Shown here one piece after another: positions 35,573-52,027 of a stretch of 64,000 bases of DNA. The position numbers and the translations under genes were made by a program. The stretch spans positions 124,001 through 188,000 of the forward strand of contig NZ_CP102385.1 in NCBI RefSeq assembly GCF_024628865.1, written 5' to 3'. Under the pieces are notes generated by a model that was not told where the DNA came from, made no database searches, and saw only the letters and a list, made by a program, of their open reading frames with translations. The DNA is from Sphingopyxis sp. DBS4 (lineage in GTDB: Bacteria > Pseudomonadota > Alphaproteobacteria > Sphingomonadales > Sphingomonadaceae). Position 1 is the stretch's first letter. Each line of letters begins with the position of its first letter.

Positions 35573-35837
35573 TTGAGGATGCTCCACCGGCATGCCGGAA
35601 GGCATCGCTGATCAGCTAGTGCCGCAGCATGGTGATGGCCACCTCGGGATTATCCGCGAGTGCATCGCGCAGCGCGAGCGTGCGATGCACTCCTCATCCT
35701 GATCTGGATAGTATAGGGCTCGGGAATCTGAAACGCGTGTCTGGAAACTGCATGATCGAGTCGCATGGTGATGCACATCACCAGACTGCGAGGTCCAATA
35801 TTAAGGCCTTTCGGTCTCCTGTGTTTTGGGGTGCGCT

Positions 35838-36797
35838 ATGACTGCCGGTCGCCCCAAGCGACATCATTATGTGCCGCAATTCTATCTGCGGCGTTTTGCT
35901 TGTGCGGATGATCCCAACAAGGTTCGCGTTGCCGAACAGCACCGCGATTATTTGGTGACCGATCGTAAGTCGATCGACCGGATCGGCTATGAAGATGCGC
36001 TTCACGATTATCGGGAGGATGGCGCCACGCGATCCATCGAGGGCGATCTCAACCGGGTGATCGAAACGCCTTTTGCAGCCAGTTCGACCTGGACGAAGGT
36101 CAGCGACGGGGCTTTGGAGACGTTGGATGATGGCGATCGGGTGCCAATCTATGGCTTTGCGCGACATCTCCAGCGGAGAAACCTCGAGACGCTGCGGTTC
36201 ATTGAGGCTGAGAATGAACGCTTCAGGGCGGGTGGGCTTGCGTTGGACCTCGACGATGAAGATGCCGACATGCACGAATGGATCGCGGCGTCAGCGCAAG
36301 GCGCGCACGCACTGTTCCGCGAGGGCGCGATGGACACCTCGTTGCCGCCCGATGCTCATGCCATCAATGTGATGGTCTGCCATTCGCCAATTGCGCTGCG
36401 GACTTCGACCAACCCGACATTGCTGATCTCGTCGCCGGGACGGCAATCGGTCTTCGGCTCCTTGTTCAACGATCTGCGGACGTGGTGGTTGACGCTGGAC
36501 AGATATTGGGGCGCTTTCATCATTGCCGGCGGGCCGCCGGGTTTCAGCAATCTGCCGATGCCCGCGGACGCGGCGCGGGTGATCAACCGGCAATATCTGG
36601 TCCAGCACCAGAATAGTCTGTCGGTTCGCTATATGATCGCCGACGATGAGCTTCTCGACGAGGATCTCGCCTGGGCCGACTATCGGTTCGAACGGCAGAC
36701 CACGCATGGCGCCCGCTGGCTCAAGCCAAAACGACAGCCTAGAGATCATCCTTCTTCATCGACGCCAGTACTACCTCCGGCTGGTGACGGGCGGTGA
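35838..36797 (+). CDS. DUF4238 domain protein
   Basis: A 319-aa protein starting RPKRHHYVPQFYLRRFACAD, the DUF4238 signature. Further blocks (HLQRRNLETLRFI, NPTLLISSPG) fit the family. DUF4238 proteins occur in accessory and defence islands; activity is unproven. It overlaps the next gene tail to tail by 59 nt. It opens the cargo segment between the relaxase module and the T4SS genes. Confidence 0.75.
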   Translation: MTAGRPKRHHYVPQFYLRRFACADDPNKVRVAEQHRDYLVTDRKSIDRIGYEDALHDYREDGATRSIEGDLNRVIETPFAASSTWTKVSDGALETLDDGDRVPIYGFARHLQRRNLETLRFIEAENERFRAGGLALDLDDEDADMHEWIAASAQGAHALFREGAMDTSLPPDAHAINVMVCHSPIALRTSTNPTLLISSPGRQSVFGSLFNDLRTWWLTLDRYWGAFIIAGGPPGFSNLPMPADAARVINRQYLVQHQNSLSVRYMIADDELLDEDLAWADYRFERQTTHGARWLKPKRQPRDHPSSSTPVLPPAGDGR

Positions 36798-37425
36798 GGC
36801 AGGCGAGCATCAGCATGCCGGCAAGTTTGGTTGCTTCGAAGAAGGTGTCGACGGCTTCGAAATAGGTTTCGTCGGGGCGCTGCGGGTCATGTCCGCTGAT
36901 CTGGAAATAGGCTGTTCGCGTCTCATCGTCGGTTCGGGCGATCGAAACCTCGAAGTGGCGACCGGAGAGGTGGACGAAATCGGAGGTTCGTTCATAGACG
37001 GGGCTGATCCAGGCATGGTCTGAGGCCAGCTTCTCTCTCAGATAGGCGTCGGACATCTTATTTCCGTCCCGATCCTTGAGACGGTTGAATTGCTCGCCAT
37101 CCAGGACGGCCTTGCAGGTTGCGTCCGGATCATCGACCAGGGAGAGGGCGTTGATCCGCATGGCTGTATCGATCTGCAAGCGTAGAATGGCGGCAGCACA
37201 GGGGAAATTTCGGGCCTCTATAAGATCGCGGAACCCGCGTGCCTGCGCCAGCGTTCGCCGCAGCGCGCCGAAAATGAAGAAGTCGGCATGGGTTAGGTCC
37301 ACGGCCTTTCCCAGAATGGCTGCGCCTTTGCGGGTCAGCTCGCTTTCGAGCTGGTCGATCCGCTTCAACCGATCGACGAGGCCGGGCTGGGCCATGGATA
37401 TCGTCTTTTCCTGACTATCGGTCAT
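36739..37425 (-). CDS. Unknown protein, DUF5677-like
   Basis: A 228-aa helical protein. The segment FFIFGALRRTLAQARGFRDL, followed by NFPCAAAILRLQIDTAMRIN, resembles DUF5677-type helical bundles, which are related to HEPN folds. SDFVHLSGRHFEVS lies near residue 150. AAGGAG lies 12 nt before the ATG at 37425. Its neighbours suggest defence or stress cargo. Confidence 0.5.
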   Translation of the reverse strand: MTDSQEKTISMAQPGLVDRLKRIDQLESELTRKGAAILGKAVDLTHADFFIFGALRRTLAQARGFRDLIEARNFPCAAAILRLQIDTAMRINALSLVDDPDATCKAVLDGEQFNRLKDRDGNKMSDAYLREKLASDHAWISPVYERTSDFVHLSGRHFEVSIARTDDETRTAYFQISGHDPQRPDETYFEAVDTFFEATKLAGMLMLACLTARHQPEVVLASMKKDDL

Positions 37426-40038: not shown

Positions 40039-40135
40039 TTAAGGTGTCTCCGATCTCTAATTCGGTGTAAAACGCGTTCTCCTAACACCGCTCCCCTAGA
40101 AGCGACAATCATTGCCGCGCACCCTTATGTCGAAA

Positions 40136-40507
40136 CTTGCTCGCGACAGCACTCCTCTGGTCATCGAACATGGCCCACCCGAGCATATCAGGTCTGACAA
40201 CGGCCCCGAGATCGTCGCCCATGCGGTGCGCGAATGGCTCGGTCGGCTCGGCGTCCCCACCCTCTATATCGAGAGCTTTAATGCCCGCCTGCGGGATGAA
40301 CTGCTCAATGGTGAAATCTTCTACAGTCTGGAGGAGCTCCGGTGCGTCACCGGCTGGTGGCGCGATCATTACCATCGCCTCCGACCGCACAGCAGCCTCG
40401 GATATCGACCACCGGTTCCGGAAACGATCAAGATGCGAGCCTGGCCGCTCGGCTCCGCTGCGCTCCGCGTCCCGCTCAGGCTGGCATCGGAAGCGATCTT
40501 CAACTAA
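40136..40507 (+). pseudogene. IS3-family OrfB remnant
   Basis: The C-terminal third of an IS3 transposase: PPEHIRSDNGPEIVAHAVRE, then LYIESFNARLRDELLNGEIF and RPHSSLGYRPPVPET. It lacks the N-terminal part, and about 11 codons are deleted between LYI and ESFNA, removing the turn before the catalytic Glu. It differs clearly from the intact IS3 at 9259 and is a separate, dead copy. Its left neighbour is the promoter of the 440-aa gene. Confidence 0.85.
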
Positions 40508-42142: not shown

Positions 42143-42646
42143 ATGGTTGAACTTGCCGATCACGACAGAGCCTTTTGGGACGATGGCGAATGGGTCAGCT
42201 GGGACGAGATAAATCAGCAGATCGAATACAAGGAATGGCGGGCGAAATATCCGAATGCCGACATCTCGCTCGTTCCGATCTTCGAAAGCCTTCTCTCGAC
42301 AGCGTGTAGCTACAACGCCCACACCGGGCAGCATCTGCAGGTTTACGGCGACATCGGCGAATTATATGGCGCGATCACCCATGGCATCCGGTTGAACCGG
42401 AATTATGCGCAAGGGTCCGACGGACGGCTCGACAACGACCTGATCGAAATCAAAACGATCACGCCGTTCAAGCGGACGGACACCGTTGAAATTAATATGG
42501 CGCGGAACTTCAGCAAGGTTCTAATCGTCCGCATCAATGATGAGTTCGATATCAGCGGGAAGCTGATCGACCGGAAATCGCTGCCCAAGGCTAAAGGGAA
42601 AATCCGTGTAAGCTGGAGTGAGGTTTCAGGTCATTCGATCATCTAG
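42143..42646 (+). CDS. PD-(D/E)XK-like protein (DUF6998-like)
   Basis: A 167-aa protein. VYGDIGELYGAITHGIRLNR and then GRLDNDLIEIKTITPFKRTD give the E...D-x-E-x-K spacing of restriction-endonuclease-fold nucleases. That suggests a small nuclease or inactive relative. It stands alone, divergent from the zinc-ribbon gene and converging on the PLD operon with 19 nt between stops. Confidence 0.6.
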   Translation: MVELADHDRAFWDDGEWVSWDEINQQIEYKEWRAKYPNADISLVPIFESLLSTACSYNAHTGQHLQVYGDIGELYGAITHGIRLNRNYAQGSDGRLDNDLIEIKTITPFKRTDTVEINMARNFSKVLIVRINDEFDISGKLIDRKSLPKAKGKIRVSWSEVSGHSII

Positions 42647-42665: not shown

Positions 42666-43241
42666 CTAGTCGAACACCATCTTCCGGGTGACCGACGTCG
42701 TTCCCAAGGTTGCGTACGAACCGCCTTCCAAGAGCTTGGCTAAGCCGACGCAATTGAACCATTTGGCGTTGATGCCATTGTCCGCAAGATATTTGGTCAC
42801 ATAGGCCTTGGACCAACCCTGACTGGTCGATGCCAGCCGGTTGCCGCGACCCACGATTGTCTCTTCTGGATTGCCGATCCCTATCGAAGAGCAACGGTAG
42901 GTGTCCGGGACAATCAGCTTTTCGCCCTCGAACCGGATCCCGCTGATGTTGCCATCGTTCGGCAGGGTCCTCACTTCCCCGGCAGAGATATCGATTGTTC
43001 GAGACATTTGCGCCGCATGAACGCATTCGTAGCCATCCTTAATCGACCAGCAGCGGGTCAGCGCGTCCGAAAAGCCTTCGACGCCCGATTGCGCTACAAA
43101 GCTCCCGTCTGCCACCTTCTCCCAAGTCACCGTCTTTTCAGCCGATCGCGGCATATCGACCGGGCGTGATAGGAAAATCCAAGCGCCATAACCGGCGGCG
43201 ATGGTCGCGACGGTGGCCACCCCGATCCAAAGCTTGCTCAT
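42666..43241 (-). CDS. Unknown single-pass membrane protein, third gene of PLD operon
   Basis: A 191-aa protein with one N-terminal transmembrane segment (LWIGVATVATIAAGYGAWIF), then a periplasmic-looking domain with four to five cysteines (TRCWSIKDGYECVHA, TYRCSSIGIG). It starts by 4-nt overlap (ATGA, 43238-43241) with the PLD gene. No family is recognised. A membrane effector or anchor for the upstream proteins is a reasonable guess only. Confidence 0.65.
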   Translation of the reverse strand: MSKLWIGVATVATIAAGYGAWIFLSRPVDMPRSAEKTVTWEKVADGSFVAQSGVEGFSDALTRCWSIKDGYECVHAAQMSRTIDISAGEVRTLPNDGNISGIRFEGEKLIVPDTYRCSSIGIGNPEETIVGRGNRLASTSQGWSKAYVTKYLADNGINAKWFNCVGLAKLLEGGSYATLGTTSVTRKMVFD

Positions 43242-45607
43242 TCGCCCGCCGCCCTCTCCGCACCAACCGCCGCGTCTTCCGCCGCGATGATATTATCCGC
43301 GTTCGCCCGCAACCCCAGTCTGATTCCGATCGAGCGATCCAAGCCAGCGCGGATGTCCGCGGCGATGGCGCCAGTCAGCTCGGCGCTCGTCAGGCCTAGC
43401 AGTTTGATCATCAGCACTCGAAGCTTGGAGACATATGGCAGGAAGTCACGATTTGCACGATTGTTGGGCATCAGCGCCTCGATGGTATCTAGCGCCCAAA
43501 GCGAGGTTACCCAGCATTCCATAAAGTCGACAGGCATTTCGACATATTCTCGCGCCATCATGAGCCTGGAGATAGCCGGCGATCGACTGCCGAAAAATGC
43601 GACGAGCGCCCGTACGACCAGCCGGGGCCATGATTGGGGTGCGCTCGAGCAGTCGAGCCCCTTCGGGAGGTCGTTACAGCGAGCCTTGTAAAGCAGGAGC
43701 AGGATCCAATAGCGAAGACGGAGGACCTCGGCTGATCCGATGGCACCCTCTCCATCTTCGATTTCCTCCGCATAGGCCCAGATATAATATTCGAACTCTT
43801 TGGCATCTACTGTCCGAAGCTCGACAGGCTCCCGATCAGCCGAAGTCGACGGGGCGGGTTCGACGTCGGCATCCGGCATGTCATCCATGTCATCCGCTTC
43901 GTCGCCCATATCGAGCCAGCCGTCATCGTCGCGATCGGTGCTGGGCTCGCCGCGCCCGGTCAACAGATTTAGAAAACCCCGAATGCTGTCGGTGTAGGTG
44001 CCGGCCAGGCTATTGGCTCCATTCCCGCCCCCCCGCGTAGCGCCCGGGCGCGCTTCGGTGAATTCCTCATAGCTGAGATTTGTTGGATCGGCTCCGGCTC
44101 CGACTTCTTTCGGATCTCGCGGACGAGCGCTTGCGATCACGGCACCCTCTTTGTTCTCCGAAAAATCGGCGCGGACCAGAGTTTCGAATGCTTCGTGCAT
44201 CCAAAGCTCAAAATCAGTTCCATCGGTGAAGTGGGAGAGCGCCCGAGCGACGCGGCCGCTGGCTGCTTCCCGGCGACTTTCCCTGAGCGCCTGCCGGTGC
44301 GAAACGTGGGCCGTTGTCGAGATATATTCGCCGCGGACAATGCGTGCAAAGTAAAGCTTCTGCTGAAGTTCCGAGGCGATTGACACAACTCGTCGAGCGC
44401 CAACGCTCGCAAACGACGTCGCCGGAACGTCTGCCACCACCCTGCCGGTGCGGTCGAGAAGCTGGACGGCTCCATCCCCTGCGTCGCCGATGGGCGGCTG
44501 CCAGAATAGCGAGCCTTGATCCAGTTCGAAGGAGCCAGGACGCCGAGCCGCCAAGGCCACCAGCGGGATTTCGGGCCGAGCTTCGCGGTCCGCTAAATCG
44601 GAGAGCTCAAGCCGATCAGCGTCAATCCAGCGATCTAGCGCTAACGCTTCGACTGCGGCCCCCGCTGGCAATCGGCGATAGATGCATGCCTCTGCGTTGC
44701 TGCCGACGCTGGTCAGTGCCGCCGTCGTACAATTCGCGCTCCCCAATAGGACATGATCATGATGCTTCGTCATCGCGACGAAGATTTTCGCATGAGTGAA
44801 GCGCGATGACGGGTAATCAAGATCTACGAGCCGCACCCTTTTTGCGAAGGCTGCTTCGATGGGGAATTCGTGTTGTTCGCTGTCGATCGGAAGAATGATC
44901 TCTTTAGGCGAGAGTTCGGCCGCCAATTCAGACAGGGCGCTGAGGTTGTTATCCCAGTAGGGACTGACAATGATCAGCCTCCGCACCTTCTCGTCGCCGA
45001 TCCATTCCACGAACCGGTCGGCAATCCCGTGATCTGATGATGAAGGAAGGAAGCCAATTGCAGAACCGTCCCCCAGTTCTTTAAGCGGTGCCCCGACCGG
45101 CCCTTCCAGCCAAGGCGCACGTTCCCGGGCCCAGCGTAGCGCATCTCGCGCTGGGCACGCCTCATCAGGCACCAGCGAGTGCAAATACTGCCAGATAGCG
45201 CGGAGCAGTTCTCGTTCGGGCCCCTCTTCACTGCCAGACTCGATCTCAATGGCGATCTCCACATTCCCGCCGAGCCCGGCAGCAGTAGCATTGGCCGAAC
45301 TGACAAATGCCCTTCCCGTCTCGCGACCGAGTTGCAGAATGATCTTGGGGTGGAAGATGCCGTCGCTCGCTGGCGGACTATGAAGCGCGTAATCTCGGCC
45401 TAGTGCGATGGGTAACCTCGAGCCGTCGGAAAGGGCCATTGCCACCATGCGATCGTCGGCGATCATGAGAAGATTGGTGGCGCCGCTTGCCATGATCTGC
45501 GGCAGCAGTATTTCTTCGACCGCGGCGAATTCAACCGCGAACGTGGTCGCGATGGCGCTGTGAAAGGGCTTGCGGGGTCGCCGACCCAGCCGATCAGGCA
45601 GTTTCAT
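43238..45607 (-). CDS. PLD-like nuclease-family protein, second gene of three-gene operon
   Basis: A 789-aa protein with two HKD-like halves. The first has DGIFHPKIILQLGRETGRAF followed by SSANATAAGLGGNVE; the second, near residue 270, has SSRFTHAKIFVAMTKHHDHV followed by LLGSANCTTAAL. These are H-x-K...N patterns of PLD-superfamily nucleases found in restriction and defence proteins. No helicase domain is fused. The C-terminal 300 residues include an acidic low-complexity linker and an unknown helical domain. It overlaps both neighbours by 4 nt, so the three products are probably made together. Confidence 0.75.
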   Translation of the reverse strand: MKLPDRLGRRPRKPFHSAIATTFAVEFAAVEEILLPQIMASGATNLLMIADDRMVAMALSDGSRLPIALGRDYALHSPPASDGIFHPKIILQLGRETGRAFVSSANATAAGLGGNVEIAIEIESGSEEGPERELLRAIWQYLHSLVPDEACPARDALRWARERAPWLEGPVGAPLKELGDGSAIGFLPSSSDHGIADRFVEWIGDEKVRRLIIVSPYWDNNLSALSELAAELSPKEIILPIDSEQHEFPIEAAFAKRVRLVDLDYPSSRFTHAKIFVAMTKHHDHVLLGSANCTTAALTSVGSNAEACIYRRLPAGAAVEALALDRWIDADRLELSDLADREARPEIPLVALAARRPGSFELDQGSLFWQPPIGDAGDGAVQLLDRTGRVVADVPATSFASVGARRVVSIASELQQKLYFARIVRGEYISTTAHVSHRQALRESRREAASGRVARALSHFTDGTDFELWMHEAFETLVRADFSENKEGAVIASARPRDPKEVGAGADPTNLSYEEFTEARPGATRGGGNGANSLAGTYTDSIRGFLNLLTGRGEPSTDRDDDGWLDMGDEADDMDDMPDADVEPAPSTSADREPVELRTVDAKEFEYYIWAYAEEIEDGEGAIGSAEVLRLRYWILLLLYKARCNDLPKGLDCSSAPQSWPRLVVRALVAFFGSRSPAISRLMMAREYVEMPVDFMECWVTSLWALDTIEALMPNNRANRDFLPYVSKLRVLMIKLLGLTSAELTGAIAADIRAGLDRSIGIRLGLRANADNIIAAEDAAVGAERAAGE

Positions 45608-47118
45608 GCGGCCGCCTCCAGCAGGGAACGCGCGCGCGCGGTCGGGCCATCTTCGTTCAGGAGGTGAATGTCTTCGAGAAACTGGATCGCCGGCACCAGA
45701 CGAGGAGTCGTCGCGACTGGCTGATAGCCCTTGAGGTAGATCAATCGACCATCCCGTGCCTCGAACAGGAAGGTATAGTCTCGTTGCCTGCGGAGCTTTT
45801 GCATCGCGACCCAGCTATGACGTCGAACCACACGCTCGACTACATAGTCGGCGATCTTCTCGATGACGGTCTGATCTTCCTTCAAGGCCAGCCAATTCAG
45901 CTCGGTGCGGAGCGAATGCGCCATACCGCGCGCAGGAAAGCCCTGATCGACGCGGCCCGCTAGGTCGGGACGCTCCAACGTTCGTTGATGGAGCGCTGCC
46001 ATCAACTGAATGGCGGCTATGGCCTTCTCGTCAGGCGCGCCGCGCGAATTTGTCAGCTGGTTCCAGGTCGCTCGGAAGTCATATTTCGCGCTGTCGATCT
46101 TGGATCGGAATTCGCCCCAAGATCTAGCGAAACCCGTCTCGGCTTGCGACACGAGATCGTCGACGACCTGCGCACGAATCTCAGGAATCGATAGGCCGCC
46201 ATCGGAGGTATTGAGCAGCGAGATAGCCCAAGCCAACAGCGATGCGGCCGCCACCTGCATCAGGTCCTGGCAGTTGTAGACCTCCCAGTTCAGTCGCTGA
46301 GCTTCGAGTTCTAAGGGCAGAAAGTCCGCGGGCGGATTGAAGAGGTGCCATCGGACGTCTTCCGGTCCGGGGCTCTCTGCGATGGCACGAGCCGTTTCGA
46401 GGACGAGGCGCAGAGATGCACTTCGGCTGCGCGCGTTCTCTGAGGCAGTGTCTGCGTCTGCGAATAGGAGCATTTCGTAAAATTCGCACTCGGCGCTGCC
46501 CTCTTCGATTTCGGATGGAGCAATTCCGCTGAGGCGCTCGAGATCGGGAACGCTTACGCTGGCATCCGCGATCTTCTTCTTGAGCAGCTTCGCAACGTCC
46601 GGGCCGATTGCGTTGGCGAACAAGATCGCGGCTCGTTTGCCGAGCTCGCGCGTGGCGACCTGAATGCCATGCTTGTTGTAGGTGAAGAGCCCCAGTTCTT
46701 CCATTTGGGAAAAGTATGCGCCACCGAAGACGCCGAGCGCTTGGCGCAGATATAGTTTCTGCGATCGATCGGTAGTGGCGGCTGCAGCGAAATCGATGAC
46801 CTTCTTGCCGGCGGCAAGCCTTCCGTTCGCCCATTCGGTTCCCCCGACGCCAGTCTCATTGGCATAGGCAGCGACAAGGGCATAGAGCGCCTCAGCTCTG
46901 CGGAGCCAAGTTCGCCACGCCTCGAAATCGTCGGAAGCTCCGCTGCGTGCATAAGTTTCGCTGACCCAGCAATAGTAGCAGTAGTAGCGCATGCGAAGGG
47001 TAACATTGCTGATTCCCGGCAAAAGCGCTTGGTACAGGAGGACACCGCTATTTTGAATGCCAAGGGGGTCTAGGCCGCGCTTCTCCGCCTTCTCCGTCCA
47101 CTGAGGTAACAGATCCAA
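45604..47118 (-). CDS. Unknown 504-aa protein, first gene of three-gene operon
   Basis: Starts at a TTG (47118) with GGGGGGAAA a few bases upstream. The N-terminus reads LDPLGIQNSGVLLYQALLPG then RMRYYCYYCWVSETYARSGA, an unusual aromatic/cysteine stretch. The rest is helical with no transmembrane segment and no ATPase, nuclease or protease motif I can see; the C-terminus has WVAMQKLRRQRDYTFLFEAR. It is coupled to the PLD gene by ATGA overlap. A specificity or sensor subunit is possible; function is not known. Confidence 0.7.
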   Translation of the reverse strand: MDLLPQWTEKAEKRGLDPLGIQNSGVLLYQALLPGISNVTLRMRYYCYYCWVSETYARSGASDDFEAWRTWLRRAEALYALVAAYANETGVGGTEWANGRLAAGKKVIDFAAAATTDRSQKLYLRQALGVFGGAYFSQMEELGLFTYNKHGIQVATRELGKRAAILFANAIGPDVAKLLKKKIADASVSVPDLERLSGIAPSEIEEGSAECEFYEMLLFADADTASENARSRSASLRLVLETARAIAESPGPEDVRWHLFNPPADFLPLELEAQRLNWEVYNCQDLMQVAAASLLAWAISLLNTSDGGLSIPEIRAQVVDDLVSQAETGFARSWGEFRSKIDSAKYDFRATWNQLTNSRGAPDEKAIAAIQLMAALHQRTLERPDLAGRVDQGFPARGMAHSLRTELNWLALKEDQTVIEKIADYVVERVVRRHSWVAMQKLRRQRDYTFLFEARDGRLIYLKGYQPVATTPRLVPAIQFLEDIHLLNEDGPTARARSLLEAAA

Positions 47119-47349: not shown

Positions 47350-48099
47350 TTAGTTGGTGATCGCGAGTTCAATGAGGTTGCGGCTGATTTCTCTTGAGCG
47401 GGCGACGAGGCCGCGTGTTTGGTCACGAAGCATAAGTTGGCCGATAATGCCTTCGACATAGGCCGGATTGGTTTTATCGATAACTTCCAGCGCGTTTTTG
47501 CATTTGTCGAGCGGGCATTGCTTGAGGGCAGACACCACATATTCCGACCCGAAATGCTCGGAAACAGCGGCTAGATCGAACATATCACGAGGTTGGAAGC
47601 TCCAGCCGCGATAGAATACCTTCTTGGCGATGATTTCCGCTGGCGTCTCCAAAGCTACTGCATGCCCTCGTACATCGGTCGCTGTGGTCGGGTCTGGAAG
47701 GATATTATCGCAGCAAATGAAGTCGATTTCGCCCAAATTCTCATATGCGAGCTTCAGGACGTCCGCGCCGGCTTGGTAGCTATCGGGAGCTTGGTCGAGC
47801 TTGATACCCTGCGTCTCGGGATTCAAGAACGGTAGATATTGCGGATCGTCCAGAAACAGATCGATATCGTGGCTCTCGCGATGATCGATCTGCAACATCA
47901 GGGCAGTCCCGCCGCCGAAGCTCCATTGGGGCGAAAAACCATTTTTTTCGTCGAAATGCTTCAGGATGCCGATGGCGAGATCGAAGAGGACCGGCCATTC
48001 GCTTGGCCGCTTCTCGGGCACGGCGTCAGGCCGCCAGCGGCAATGCGTAACCCGAAAGCTGCGAGACCTGCTCTGCGACTTGGCTAGCCAGTTGCTCAT
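47350..48099 (-). CDS. AbiEii/AbiGii-like nucleotidyltransferase toxin
   Basis: Up to 249 aa. QWSFGGGTALMLQIDHRESH followed by DIDLFLDD is the diagnostic AbiEii motif set (GG-x-A/T and D-x-D of the nucleotidyltransferase), then DFICCDN and ETPAEIIAKKVFYRG. AbiEii toxins transfer nucleotides to tRNA or other targets. The frame start at 48099 overlaps the previous gene by 74 nt; a GTG at 48021, just past that gene's stop, is an alternative that keeps the conserved part. The usual AbiEi antitoxin is absent. Confidence 0.78.
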   Translation of the reverse strand: MSNWLAKSQSRSRSFRVTHCRWRPDAVPEKRPSEWPVLFDLAIGILKHFDEKNGFSPQWSFGGGTALMLQIDHRESHDIDLFLDDPQYLPFLNPETQGIKLDQAPDSYQAGADVLKLAYENLGEIDFICCDNILPDPTTATDVRGHAVALETPAEIIAKKVFYRGWSFQPRDMFDLAAVSEHFGSEYVVSALKQCPLDKCKNALEVIDKTNPAYVEGIIGQLMLRDQTRGLVARSREISRNLIELAITN

Positions 48100-48289
48100 T
48101 CACATTCATGGCCCACATGAACTGCTTCTGGACCTGAAGCGGAACTTCCGAGAAAAATGCGAAAACCGGCGCATTGAAGTCAATCGCGCTCTGGGAATCG
48201 ATGATCATAGCGGCAAGCTGATGTGCGGAAACAGCCGCCCCGTAAGGGGCGTTCACCGTCGTAAGCACTTGAGTTACAGCGTTTGCCAT
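48026..48289 (-). CDS. Small unknown protein upstream of AbiEii-like gene, possible antitoxin
   Basis: An 87-aa helical protein, MANAVTQVLTTVNAPYGAAV then QKQFMWAMNVNEQLASQVAE. It is the nearest upstream gene and overlaps or abuts the AbiEii-like gene, the position of an antitoxin. It does not resemble AbiEi, which is larger and has a winged helix. No function is claimed beyond position. A second ATG lies one codon earlier at 48292. Confidence 0.5.
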   Translation of the reverse strand: MANAVTQVLTTVNAPYGAAVSAHQLAAMIIDSQSAIDFNAPVFAFFSEVPLQVQKQFMWAMNVNEQLASQVAEQVSQLSGYALPLAA

Positions 48290-48487
48290 CATCCGACTCT
48301 TAACGCGATCCTGATTGGATCGTTGCTCTCATATAGCGTCGCGCGGTTATCAAAACAAGAATGCCAGCTTTGACGGGCAAATCCTGCTCAGAATTCGCAG
48401 CGTTCGACGCTTACCCGTTACCGCAAAACACACAGCAACTTGCCGTTCAGGGGTGTTTCCTGTATGTTCGCGAAGAAGGATAGCGCC

Positions 48488-48805: not shown

Positions 48806-51800
48806 TTAGCGCTTCCGTCCTCGACCTCGCTGCGGCTTCGGATCGTGTTCAATGTGAAGATGGTTGTTCGCCGGCTTGTCCTTGAACGTCTCGAAATTGA
48901 CGTCGTAGTCGGGGCCCAGTCGCTCCCGGACATCTCGAGCCCACTGGCGCCCCTGGCCAACACTAATGTCGTTCCCGCGCAAATCGACGCCTTTCCCTTC
49001 CGGGTGAAGACTGCCACGAGAATGCTGGCTGTCGCGCGCAGAAGTCACCACGCGCTGTGGCAGCCCAAGCGCGTGGGCTGAAGCTGCCGCGGCGGTCAAT
49101 GCCGGCGCCATACTCGAGTCCATCGAACTCAAATTGGTCCCCGACTTAATTCCGAGACCCGCGGCCGAGGCAACACCTCCGAGGTTGACCCGTTCTCCAC
49201 CGAGCGGCGCTTCTGCCGCGCTGTCGAGGCCGAGCGCACGAAGCGCAGACGCCACGCCAGGCATTGTACGGATAACCCAGCTGTCATTGCGAGCTTCTGC
49301 GGTCGCACCGAGGCTATCAGCTTGCCGGCGATCTCCGAGCAGAGTTGCGCGCATGCCCTGTCCATATTCTTCAAGCCGAGCAACACTCCCGTCCAGTCGG
49401 CCAGAGACGTCGTTCTCGAGCCCGACGTCTCTCGCGGAACCGGAAACATCGACTGCAGGACCGCGCGAGGAGATGTCGGCCATGCCGGCAGCACCGATCG
49501 CACGGATGTCGTCGGCTGTGGAGAACGACGGGCCAGCGATTGTCGCCCCCGGCGCATCGGGGACGACGCCGAGATCGCGGTGCATTTGGTCAACGCGATC
49601 ATCCATGAACTGCTTCAGCAAGGCATCCTGCGTCATCGCTTGAGTTGTCGTCATGTTGACAAGTCCAGGATGGTAGCTCTGGTCGAGATGGCGGTTTTGC
49701 GGATCCATCATCGCCGTTTGCGCATAGCGCACGAAGTCCTGGCTCAGATTCTTGTTGAGCGAATAGCCGTCGCGCTCGAACTGCGAGAATTCGTTCGACC
49801 AACGCTGGTATTGATCTTCGGCGCGCGAAGCTTCCTCGCTGAGACTTTGCGAATGGCGAAGATCCTGTGACACTTCTTGACCGAGTCCACGAACCTGGCT
49901 GTCGGTTGACGACGTAGTAGCCCGATAGAAGCTCTCGCGTGCTTGGCGAGCGGCTTCCGAATTGGATTCCCTCTCAAGCCACTGCAAGGCATCCGTATTG
50001 GAATTCTGCGTCGACACGCCCTGTTCGGTATTTCGCGTGTCAGTAGATTTTCCATTCAGCCCGGCGCGTAAGCTGCCCTGAGCGGAGAGAGGTCCTCTGC
50101 CCTTAAGGGTGCCGCTTCCGTCGACCCCATAACTGCCCGTCAGCGCAGTGTCGCGTGCAAGTTTGTCGGCCTCGGTCTTGGTCATACCGAACTGAGTTTG
50201 CAAGGTATTCGACCATTGCGCCGACAAGTCCTGAACCTGCGCAATTGACGACTGGAGCGCGCGGCCTTCTTCAGTGGTTGCACTTGCTGACGTCTGCGCG
50301 GTGTCAAAGAGGCGCGCCGATTCTGTTCGGGTCGTAGCCCAGCTATCGTTTGCCGCGACCCGCTTCTGTTCCACCACGCTCGAACCTTGGCTAAGTCCCT
50401 TCTGCAGCTGCGAGCCATAATCCTTGCTCGCCGAAATCGCGAAGCCGAGGTTCGAAATACCCTGACTAGTATCATAGGCGAAAGTGCCGTCCTCGTTATA
50501 CCGGGTGAACGCGCCGTCGCCGGAGCGCTGCTGGATGGATCCGGCGCCGGTTTGGAAGCTCGGCGCGGTCGAATATTGATCGCGGCTGAGCGTATTGATT
50601 TGACGGTTCATCAGAGACGCGTTGCCATAGGAATAATTGCCCGTCGTGGCTTCGGCCGCAGCCTGTTCGGCCGCATTCTGGCTGGGCGAGAGAAAACTCG
50701 CCGAATGCGATGCGATCGCCATCGCACCCTTCGCCATGCCGGCAGCAATGAAGGGCACGGACATGATCATGTAGCCGGCGAGTGCGCCGACATCCTGATT
50801 GACGGCCGAGATGCCCGAGAAGTTGGCAGCGGTCATGCCGCCGCTCGCGCCCCACGACGCCAAGGAATCCTGCCAGCGCGACATGAAGATCATGTTCAGA
50901 ATGACGAACAACGGCCCCCACGCGGCGAGGTAGAAGAAGCCGGTGATATAGCCTTTCGCAACCGTCATTCCGTTTGTCGGCAGCAGCATGAGCAGGAAAA
51001 GGATCGGGAACAGCGAATAGAACACGACAGTCAACACGATGTTCAGCAAGGGAACCCACTTCATCGCGCCCGACGCGATCGTAGAATAGGTGTTCCGCGT
51101 CTGAATGTCCGCGCGGGTCTGAGCGAACGCATCGATCGCCCCCTGCGCCGAACCGTTCGCAAAGCTGTCTCGAGCTTCCGTCAAGGCGTTGATGAACATC
51201 GCCTGCCGAATGAGCTGACCGCTGCTTGAGCCCATACCCGCAGCGTTCATGCCGCTCATATCGTTGTTCAGCCGAGTTGAGGCCTGCGCGACAGGTATGC
51301 CCGGGAAGAACTGCGACGCAATTTTGGGTGCCGCGACCGCGTAATAGCCGTTCCAGCCATTGCGAATGAAATTATAGGCCGTTTCGCAAGTGACGATTCC
51401 GGAGGTCCCGTCGGGATAGATATATTGCTGCGACAGCGCGACCGACCCCGGCCCCATGGCGGTAAGCAGGTCCGGAGACTTCAGAATGTCGTCATAGGTC
51501 TTGCGGCCGAGCAGGATGTCATAAAAGACGCACTGCTTGAAATGCTCGTTGAGGTTGGTCGCGTAGACCGGATCGTCGATACGAAGGCCCTGGGTGGCGT
51601 CGAGCAGTTTCGCGCCATAGATCATGCCACCAGTCGAATAGTTGAGGACCTGGGGCATCGCGAATACGGTTTCGGCCGCGCGCGTCAGATAATCGCCGAT
51701 TTGGCTGGTGAAGCCGGCGATCAGGCCGAGTCCGATCGGAACATTATCGACGACCGCGGCCGTCACACCCGGGTTGGTGCGGTCGGTGACCTTGACCGAA

Positions 51801-52027
51801 ATCGTCGGCACCAAGATGACCATATACATCAAGGTCGCCTGCATGAACCATTTTAGCAGTGCGCGCGGATCCATGTTCCACGCCGTGACGAGGAGCGCCC
51901 AGGTGAAGGCCATGACCATCACCACGCGAATGAGGCCCCGGTAGCCACCGGAGCCAGCCCACGACGCGACCGCGTTGAAGACGTTGACGAGATACTCCCC
52001 GCCCCCAACCGTGAAGACCTCGATCAT
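48806..52027 (-). CDS. traG: TraG mating-pair formation/stabilisation protein with C-terminal M15-like domain
   Basis: A 1073-aa protein. The N-terminal half is membrane-embedded (GLIRVVMVMAFTWALLVTAW, LLNIVLTVVFYSLFPILFLL, GYITGFFYLAAWGPLFVILN) and matches F-type TraG_N, needed for pilus assembly and mating-pair stabilisation. The central part is a long polar, glutamine/serine-rich periplasmic region. The last ~90 residues differ from F TraG: SLHPEGKGVDLRGN fits S-x-H-x6-D, and NNHLHIEHD gives a final H-x-H, as in M15 zinc peptidases that cut peptidoglycan. It ends the visible transfer operon. Confidence 0.88.
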   Translation of the reverse strand: MIEVFTVGGGEYLVNVFNAVASWAGSGGYRGLIRVVMVMAFTWALLVTAWNMDPRALLKWFMQATLMYMVILVPTISVKVTDRTNPGVTAAVVDNVPIGLGLIAGFTSQIGDYLTRAAETVFAMPQVLNYSTGGMIYGAKLLDATQGLRIDDPVYATNLNEHFKQCVFYDILLGRKTYDDILKSPDLLTAMGPGSVALSQQYIYPDGTSGIVTCETAYNFIRNGWNGYYAVAAPKIASQFFPGIPVAQASTRLNNDMSGMNAAGMGSSSGQLIRQAMFINALTEARDSFANGSAQGAIDAFAQTRADIQTRNTYSTIASGAMKWVPLLNIVLTVVFYSLFPILFLLMLLPTNGMTVAKGYITGFFYLAAWGPLFVILNMIFMSRWQDSLASWGASGGMTAANFSGISAVNQDVGALAGYMIMSVPFIAAGMAKGAMAIASHSASFLSPSQNAAEQAAAEATTGNYSYGNASLMNRQINTLSRDQYSTAPSFQTGAGSIQQRSGDGAFTRYNEDGTFAYDTSQGISNLGFAISASKDYGSQLQKGLSQGSSVVEQKRVAANDSWATTRTESARLFDTAQTSASATTEEGRALQSSIAQVQDLSAQWSNTLQTQFGMTKTEADKLARDTALTGSYGVDGSGTLKGRGPLSAQGSLRAGLNGKSTDTRNTEQGVSTQNSNTDALQWLERESNSEAARQARESFYRATTSSTDSQVRGLGQEVSQDLRHSQSLSEEASRAEDQYQRWSNEFSQFERDGYSLNKNLSQDFVRYAQTAMMDPQNRHLDQSYHPGLVNMTTTQAMTQDALLKQFMDDRVDQMHRDLGVVPDAPGATIAGPSFSTADDIRAIGAAGMADISSRGPAVDVSGSARDVGLENDVSGRLDGSVARLEEYGQGMRATLLGDRRQADSLGATAEARNDSWVIRTMPGVASALRALGLDSAAEAPLGGERVNLGGVASAAGLGIKSGTNLSSMDSSMAPALTAAAASAHALGLPQRVVTSARDSQHSRGSLHPEGKGVDLRGNDISVGQGRQWARDVRERLGPDYDVNFETFKDKPANNHLHIEHDPKPQRGRGRKR

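Follow-up and report, generated by a model that had tools for sequence, protein, structure and literature searches.

A conserved gene pair with a tandem phospholipase D protein, remotely homologous to ZacA and ZacB of Azaca, in a conjugative-plasmid region of Sphingopyxis sp. DBS4

Our analysis of a 64,000-nucleotide stretch of contig NZ_CP102385.1 of Sphingopyxis sp. DBS4 (the window) shows that two of its genes, here called A and B, form a conserved gene pair, and that remote homology links their products to ZacA and ZacB of Azaca (ZacA, ZacB, ZacC). On balance, we favour the view that the pair is related to the Azaca phage-defence system but has two genes and no helicase, with a defence activity that we infer. 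Azaca is the closest named system to A+B and was absent from the candidates considered in a first-pass annotation of the window. That annotation had described three open reading frames (ORFs), A, B and C, at 42666..47118; all are present with the coordinates and lengths it gave (Table 1), and the 4-nt overlap it claimed at each junction is found as ATGA in both. Its picture of a phospholipase D (PLD) protein that lacks its own helicase gene, is tied to a partner with no recognised fold, lies among defence-type genes and matches no complete named system is likewise supported. The treatment of the three genes as one unit has to be given up: C accompanies A and B only in the window and in four near-identical Sphingopyxis loci.

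Evidence for the pair comes from 49 A-family loci, comprising the window, 45 others and three viral contigs. B adjoins A in 44 of them (42/46 and two of the three viral contigs), so that homologues of A and B do occur together, as the first-pass annotation had wanted checked for all three genes; C is rarely beside them. Among the exceptions, the available sequence of L016 and L078 stops in or just past a partial A, and in L073 (Rhizobium phaseoli) A is reduced to a fragment. Two distant A proteins (L057, 7527-9101; L061, 7393-9075) have no B match in the stretch examined and may have other partners. When 46 A sequences are grouped by single linkage at 50% identity, 16 of the 18 resulting clusters contain B. 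One cluster (L067, L071, L074, L075) shows the reversed order, B then A; the pair has thus been kept despite a change of order. On the plasmids L071 and L074 the reversed pair adjoins a ParB-family gene, and its A bears the annotation, probably wrong, of a septum formation inhibitor-activating ATPase. With longest-ORF starts, and counting loci in which both ORFs were picked, the A/B overlap is exactly 4 nt in 26/32 loci and 8 to 56 nt in the remaining six.

Searches of 72,556 plasmid records gave the same picture. The B query matched 16 records; ten of these match A too, and the other six (H26-H31) each carry an adjacent A that was detected by profile only. The A query matched 13 records, ten of which also match B, and three R. 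phaseoli plasmid records hold 14% of A and no match to B. Hosts of the pair include Alphaproteobacteria, Betaproteobacteria (Polaromonas, Cupriavidus, Undibacterium) and Bacteroidota (Myroides, Prevotella). The pair is uncommon: with the window's genome included each time, A is matched in 7/398 Pseudomonadota genomes and in 6/249 genomes of the window's own family, and one of the seven Pseudomonadota genomes (G513, locus L061) lacks B. Short or split genes in a few loci suggest that the pair is being lost in some lineages; B is short in L007 (417 aa, with another ORF next), and L017 and L065 have A or B in several pieces. In the Sphingobium loci L005 and L008, B is followed by a gene for a 271-275 aa protein that by eye resembles a class III nucleotide cyclase, and then by a 425 aa gene, both possibly lineage-specific accessory genes.

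The kinship to Azaca is visible in both proteins. In B it is plain: the PADLOC ZacB model matches the window's B at E 1.5e-16, all 20 B members at E 0.001 and four partners of distant A proteins (24/24), and it also matches in 5/14 control genomes. In A the signal is fainter. The PADLOC ZacA model matches the window's A weakly (E 9e-4) and 26 of 33 A members at E 0.01 (best 5e-6); six further, more distant A proteins gave no ZacA match, for a total of 26/39. Conversely, a search with the ZacA model found 7/289 genomes of the class and 0/14 controls, and of its seven hits six were strong and the seventh was an A-family member. Within a small set of picked ORFs, the A profile finds ZacA of L033, L034 and L036, not of L038, and the ZacA profile finds seven A members; hhalign aligns A with ZacA at E 4.5e-5 (probability 69). 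The window's A and four ZacA proteins share the pattern PGxSx4RxRYx5W in a gapless alignment, and a related form stands in 33/33 rows of alignment A8. In a larger six-frame set, at E 1e-4, the profile link survives for L065 alone, and for this reason the link between the A and ZacA profiles is weak on its own.

The first-pass annotation had found no recognisable motif in A. In fact, A bears a ZacA-type motif, PGISNVTLRMRYYCYYCW (residues 34-51), besides its weak PADLOC ZacA match. The YYCYYCW stretch remarked upon earlier is real (residues 45-51), but its first cysteine is not conserved, and the second is kept among close relatives: YYCYYCW occurs in 2/28 aligned close relatives, the window included, and YYGYYCW or YYGFYCW in 21/28. 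At E <= 0.001, 501 proteins match A (among 7,996 scored candidates). The structure prediction proposed in the first-pass annotation yielded a confident AlphaFold2 (AF2) model (mean predicted local distance difference test score, pLDDT, 88) for which comparison with the PDB gave no convincing match; A is mostly helical and may contain a winged helix.

B has a tandem PLD fold, and both of its active sites are conserved. The two H-x-K...N halves claimed for the middle protein were both located, as HxK...SxN half-sites H86-x-K88...N106 and H272-x-K274...N292, and H, K and N of both sites are invariant across 20 sequences. B has the two HxK...N half-sites within one PLD fold that define the tandem PLD superfamily. 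The Pfam PLDc_2 match is barely over its 27-bit cut-off (28.1 bits, E 2e-6). In the model, the PLD fold spans residues 1 to about 346; an acidic linker of low confidence (about 447-598) and a helical C-terminal domain (about 600-765) follow. TDP1, PLD3 and PLD4 have the tandem fold and the two half-sites in common with B at 11-13% identity; they differ in that B has the extra linker and helical domain and is paired with A. DrmC of DISARM shares the PLD motifs, but its profile matches are weak (best E 4e-7, to the window's B) and cover a short domain only. The PADLOC candidate PDC-M27B is matched by 17/20 B members (best 2e-8), against all 20 and a better best E value (7e-20) for ZacB, and its partner models (PDC-M27) matched no A member at E 0.01. 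When eight window proteins were scanned against PADLOC at E 0.1, the DISARM core proteins DrmA/DrmB and the Mokosh models gave no match.

Azaca itself is organised in a similar way: its genes run as in A-B, with that for a PLD protein directly after that for a protein with the ZacA-type motif. True Azaca loci carry a ZacA of 392-412 aa with DUF6361, then ZacB (617-618 aa where measured), then the helicase (1,059-1,077 aa where complete). In the window a PLD protein does stand adjacent to the ZacA-like protein. In contrast, DUF6361, found in two true ZacA proteins at 5e-89 and 2.5e-15, is not detectable in the window's A, which has no Pfam match at E 0.1 and is about 100 aa longer than ZacA; B measures 789 aa against about 617, its model adding the linker and the C-terminal helical domain; and A+B comes without ZacC. 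A ZacC query taken from L033 matches 6/6 Azaca genomes at E 1e-10, its own included, and gives no match in the window's genome at this threshold. Among 12 A+B genomes there was no match in 11, and the one ZacC found is partial and interrupted by a stop; in G678, one of these 12, A and B are both broken. Since neither DUF6361 nor ZacC was found, the pair is not classifiable as Azaca. ZacC is named among the SF1/SF2 helicases in a passage of PMC12278908, a list in PMC10952713 gives Azaca as PLD-containing, and the table of a 2026 review enters its mechanism as unknown (PMC12926258).

A nuclease effector is the most likely form of a defence function. B would be this effector, a phosphodiesterase or nuclease acting on foreign DNA through its two HxK...N sites, and A would bind both B and a trigger, perhaps some property of invading DNA or of an intermediate in replication, and either hold B inactive or position it. 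As there is no ATP-driven helicase, the pair would have to recognise its target passively, e.g. by attaching to DNA ends or to a phage protein. On this plasmid, the beneficiary of protection from phages or competing elements would be the host or else the plasmid. We put forward only tentatively, with the balance tipped against it, the further idea that A+B is a stand-alone, motor-free defence type of its own, made of a PLD effector and a large controlling partner whose fold matched no solved structure, with Azaca as its sister or as a descendant with an added helicase. If so, proteins with the ZacA-type motif would form a general family of PLD-controlling sensors. The comparison also suggests that in Azaca the conserved core is the sensor together with the PLD protein, the helicase being optional; the core mechanism would therefore be testable in a minimal two-gene system. 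The module occurs in at least two phyla, yet it has probably been overlooked in genome surveys, because its sensor half is at most weakly labelled by PADLOC-DB 2.0.0 and unlabelled by Pfam.

Any scenario in which A+B is a diverged Azaca that borrows a helicase in trans, from the host or a neighbouring defence system, could draw on the SNF2/DrmD-family protein near the pair in L022, UvrD in L056 and L066, HsdR in L023 and L065, and the AAA_30 region of the plasmid relaxase. These families vary by locus and none is constant, no helicase was recognised among the scanned cargo ORFs of the window, and ZacC was not found in 11/12 A+B genomes; we regard this scenario as unlikely. The remaining alternatives concern the substrate and purpose of B, for which lipids or protein-DNA joints are the best alternatives to foreign DNA. 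Abortive infection, with A holding B inactive until infection and B then damaging membrane lipids, is a poor candidate: Foldseek puts TDP1 and PLD4 first, sequence profiles favour ZacB and the DISARM PLD protein DrmC, and the strongest hydrophobic segment in B is weak (best Kyte-Doolittle 1.53).

Two overlapping genes, partly on mobile elements and in the window adjacent to an AbiEii-type gene, also recall a toxin-antitoxin (TA) pair that stabilises its element, with B as toxin and A as antitoxin. Both proteins are large, A being far bigger than usual antitoxins, and the nearest named relatives are defence proteins, which leaves this reading very improbable. The least weight of all goes to a TDP1-like activity of B on covalent protein-DNA joints (relaxase-bound strands, terminal-protein genomes) that would block conjugation or protein-primed phages. 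Human TDP1 is indeed the best Foldseek match of the B model (E 2.4e-8), the D of the classical PLD motif, to which TDP1 is an exception, is missing from both sites, and the pair lies inside a conjugation gene cluster; the match is, however, one of general fold, and by VIA-align PLD3/PLD4 and lipid enzymes score equal to or above TDP1 against B. A defence pair related to Azaca, with B as nuclease, remains our preferred interpretation.

C looks like a local passenger outside the conserved unit. By tblastn at E 0.01 over all loci examined, it adjoins A+B only in the window and the Sphingopyxis loci L002, L003, L004 and L025, which were counted as one case because they are 99.98-100% identical over A-B-C. 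Among 123 scored candidates, 14 proteins match C, and a remote relative (24.7%) lies on the Sphingobium plasmid pBSY17_4 near a Tn3 transposase, with no A+B nearby within the stretch examined. The single membrane helix ascribed to C corresponds to one hydrophobic stretch near the N terminus (Kyte-Doolittle 1.72 over 19 residues from residue 6); it is modest and could be an anchor or a signal peptide. Convergent to C is a 167-aa ORF (42143-42646) with a 169-aa counterpart in the Sphingopyxis loci and only a sub-threshold DUF6998 match.

Table 1. Positions of the pair, the passenger gene and the adjacent AbiEii-type gene in the window
Feature	Position	Strand	Description	Source
Gene A	45604..47118	(-)	504 aa, TTG start, ZacA-like	ORF list
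Gene B	43238..45607	(-)	789 aa, ZacB-like tandem PLD	ORF list
Gene C	42666..43241	(-)	191 aa, N-terminal hydrophobic segment, passenger	ORF list
A stop/B start overlap	45604..45607	(-)	ATGA, 4 nt	
AbiEii-type nucleotidyltransferase	47350..48099	(-)	249 aa in longest ORF	Pfam AbiEii E 1.1e-11

The mobile element assumed earlier proved to be a region of the F-type conjugative plasmid type. The window belongs to a 200,350-bp contig of a five-contig genome, and the trio sits between traG (48806-52027) and, further left, the genes of the coupling protein and TrwC relaxase; F-type conjugation genes on the other side encode TraC, TraU, TrbC, TraN, TraH and TraG. Sphingopyxis fribergensis pSfKp5.2 (31.5-kb stretch compared) has the same backbone and carries the segment 42068-48490 at 84.7% identity; window positions 35.5-40.7 kb have no match within this stretch. 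Labels given earlier to neighbouring genes hold for the AbiEii-like gene (Table 1) and a nucleotidyltransferase (NTP_transf_8, E 1.3e-32). They could not be confirmed for the PD-(D/E)XK-like gene, whose sole Pfam match is a sub-threshold DUF6998 (E 0.011), nor for the HEPN-like genes, as the possible candidates, ORFs of 440 and 328 aa, have no Pfam match. A small ORF (48026-48292) overlaps the 5' part of the AbiEii-type gene and may form a TA pair with it; the AbiEii gene of pSfKp5.2 is annotated as beginning after the small ORF.

Neighbours of the pair were scanned or read at 21 loci (L011-L015, L018-L025, L055, L056, L064-L066, L070, L071, L074). A defence-type gene lies near the pair in 11 of the 21, a count that is not an enrichment test because the scanned neighbours were picked by size. 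These are type I restriction-modification genes (L019, L023, L024), zorA with presumed Zorya genes (L021), a DrmD-family helicase (L022), a Tiamat-type TmtA with a GajB-like helicase (L066), HEC-05 with a type I R protein (L065), a type III methylase (L055), a BrxHI-like helicase (L013), a type II-like methylase (L012) and an HsdR-like protein (L011). The other ten loci show nothing as clear, although the AbiEii-type gene is present in L025 and a HipA gene in L064.

Cargo may have been taken up repeatedly at the position next to traG. At L064 (5819-16222) a second A+B lineage, with an A that is 27% identical and falls into a different cluster, adjoins traG/traH of another F-type cluster, and the HipA gene lies between the pair and traG/traH. 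In the window, the segment 35500-40700 contains a DUF4238 gene (35826-36797), a sub-threshold DUF5677 match (36739-37425), the 440-aa ORF, which has a weak SngB match (E 0.023), and the 328-aa ORF, which is without matches; beside the ORFs of this segment, 40112-40507 looks by eye like the remnant of an IS3-type integrase.
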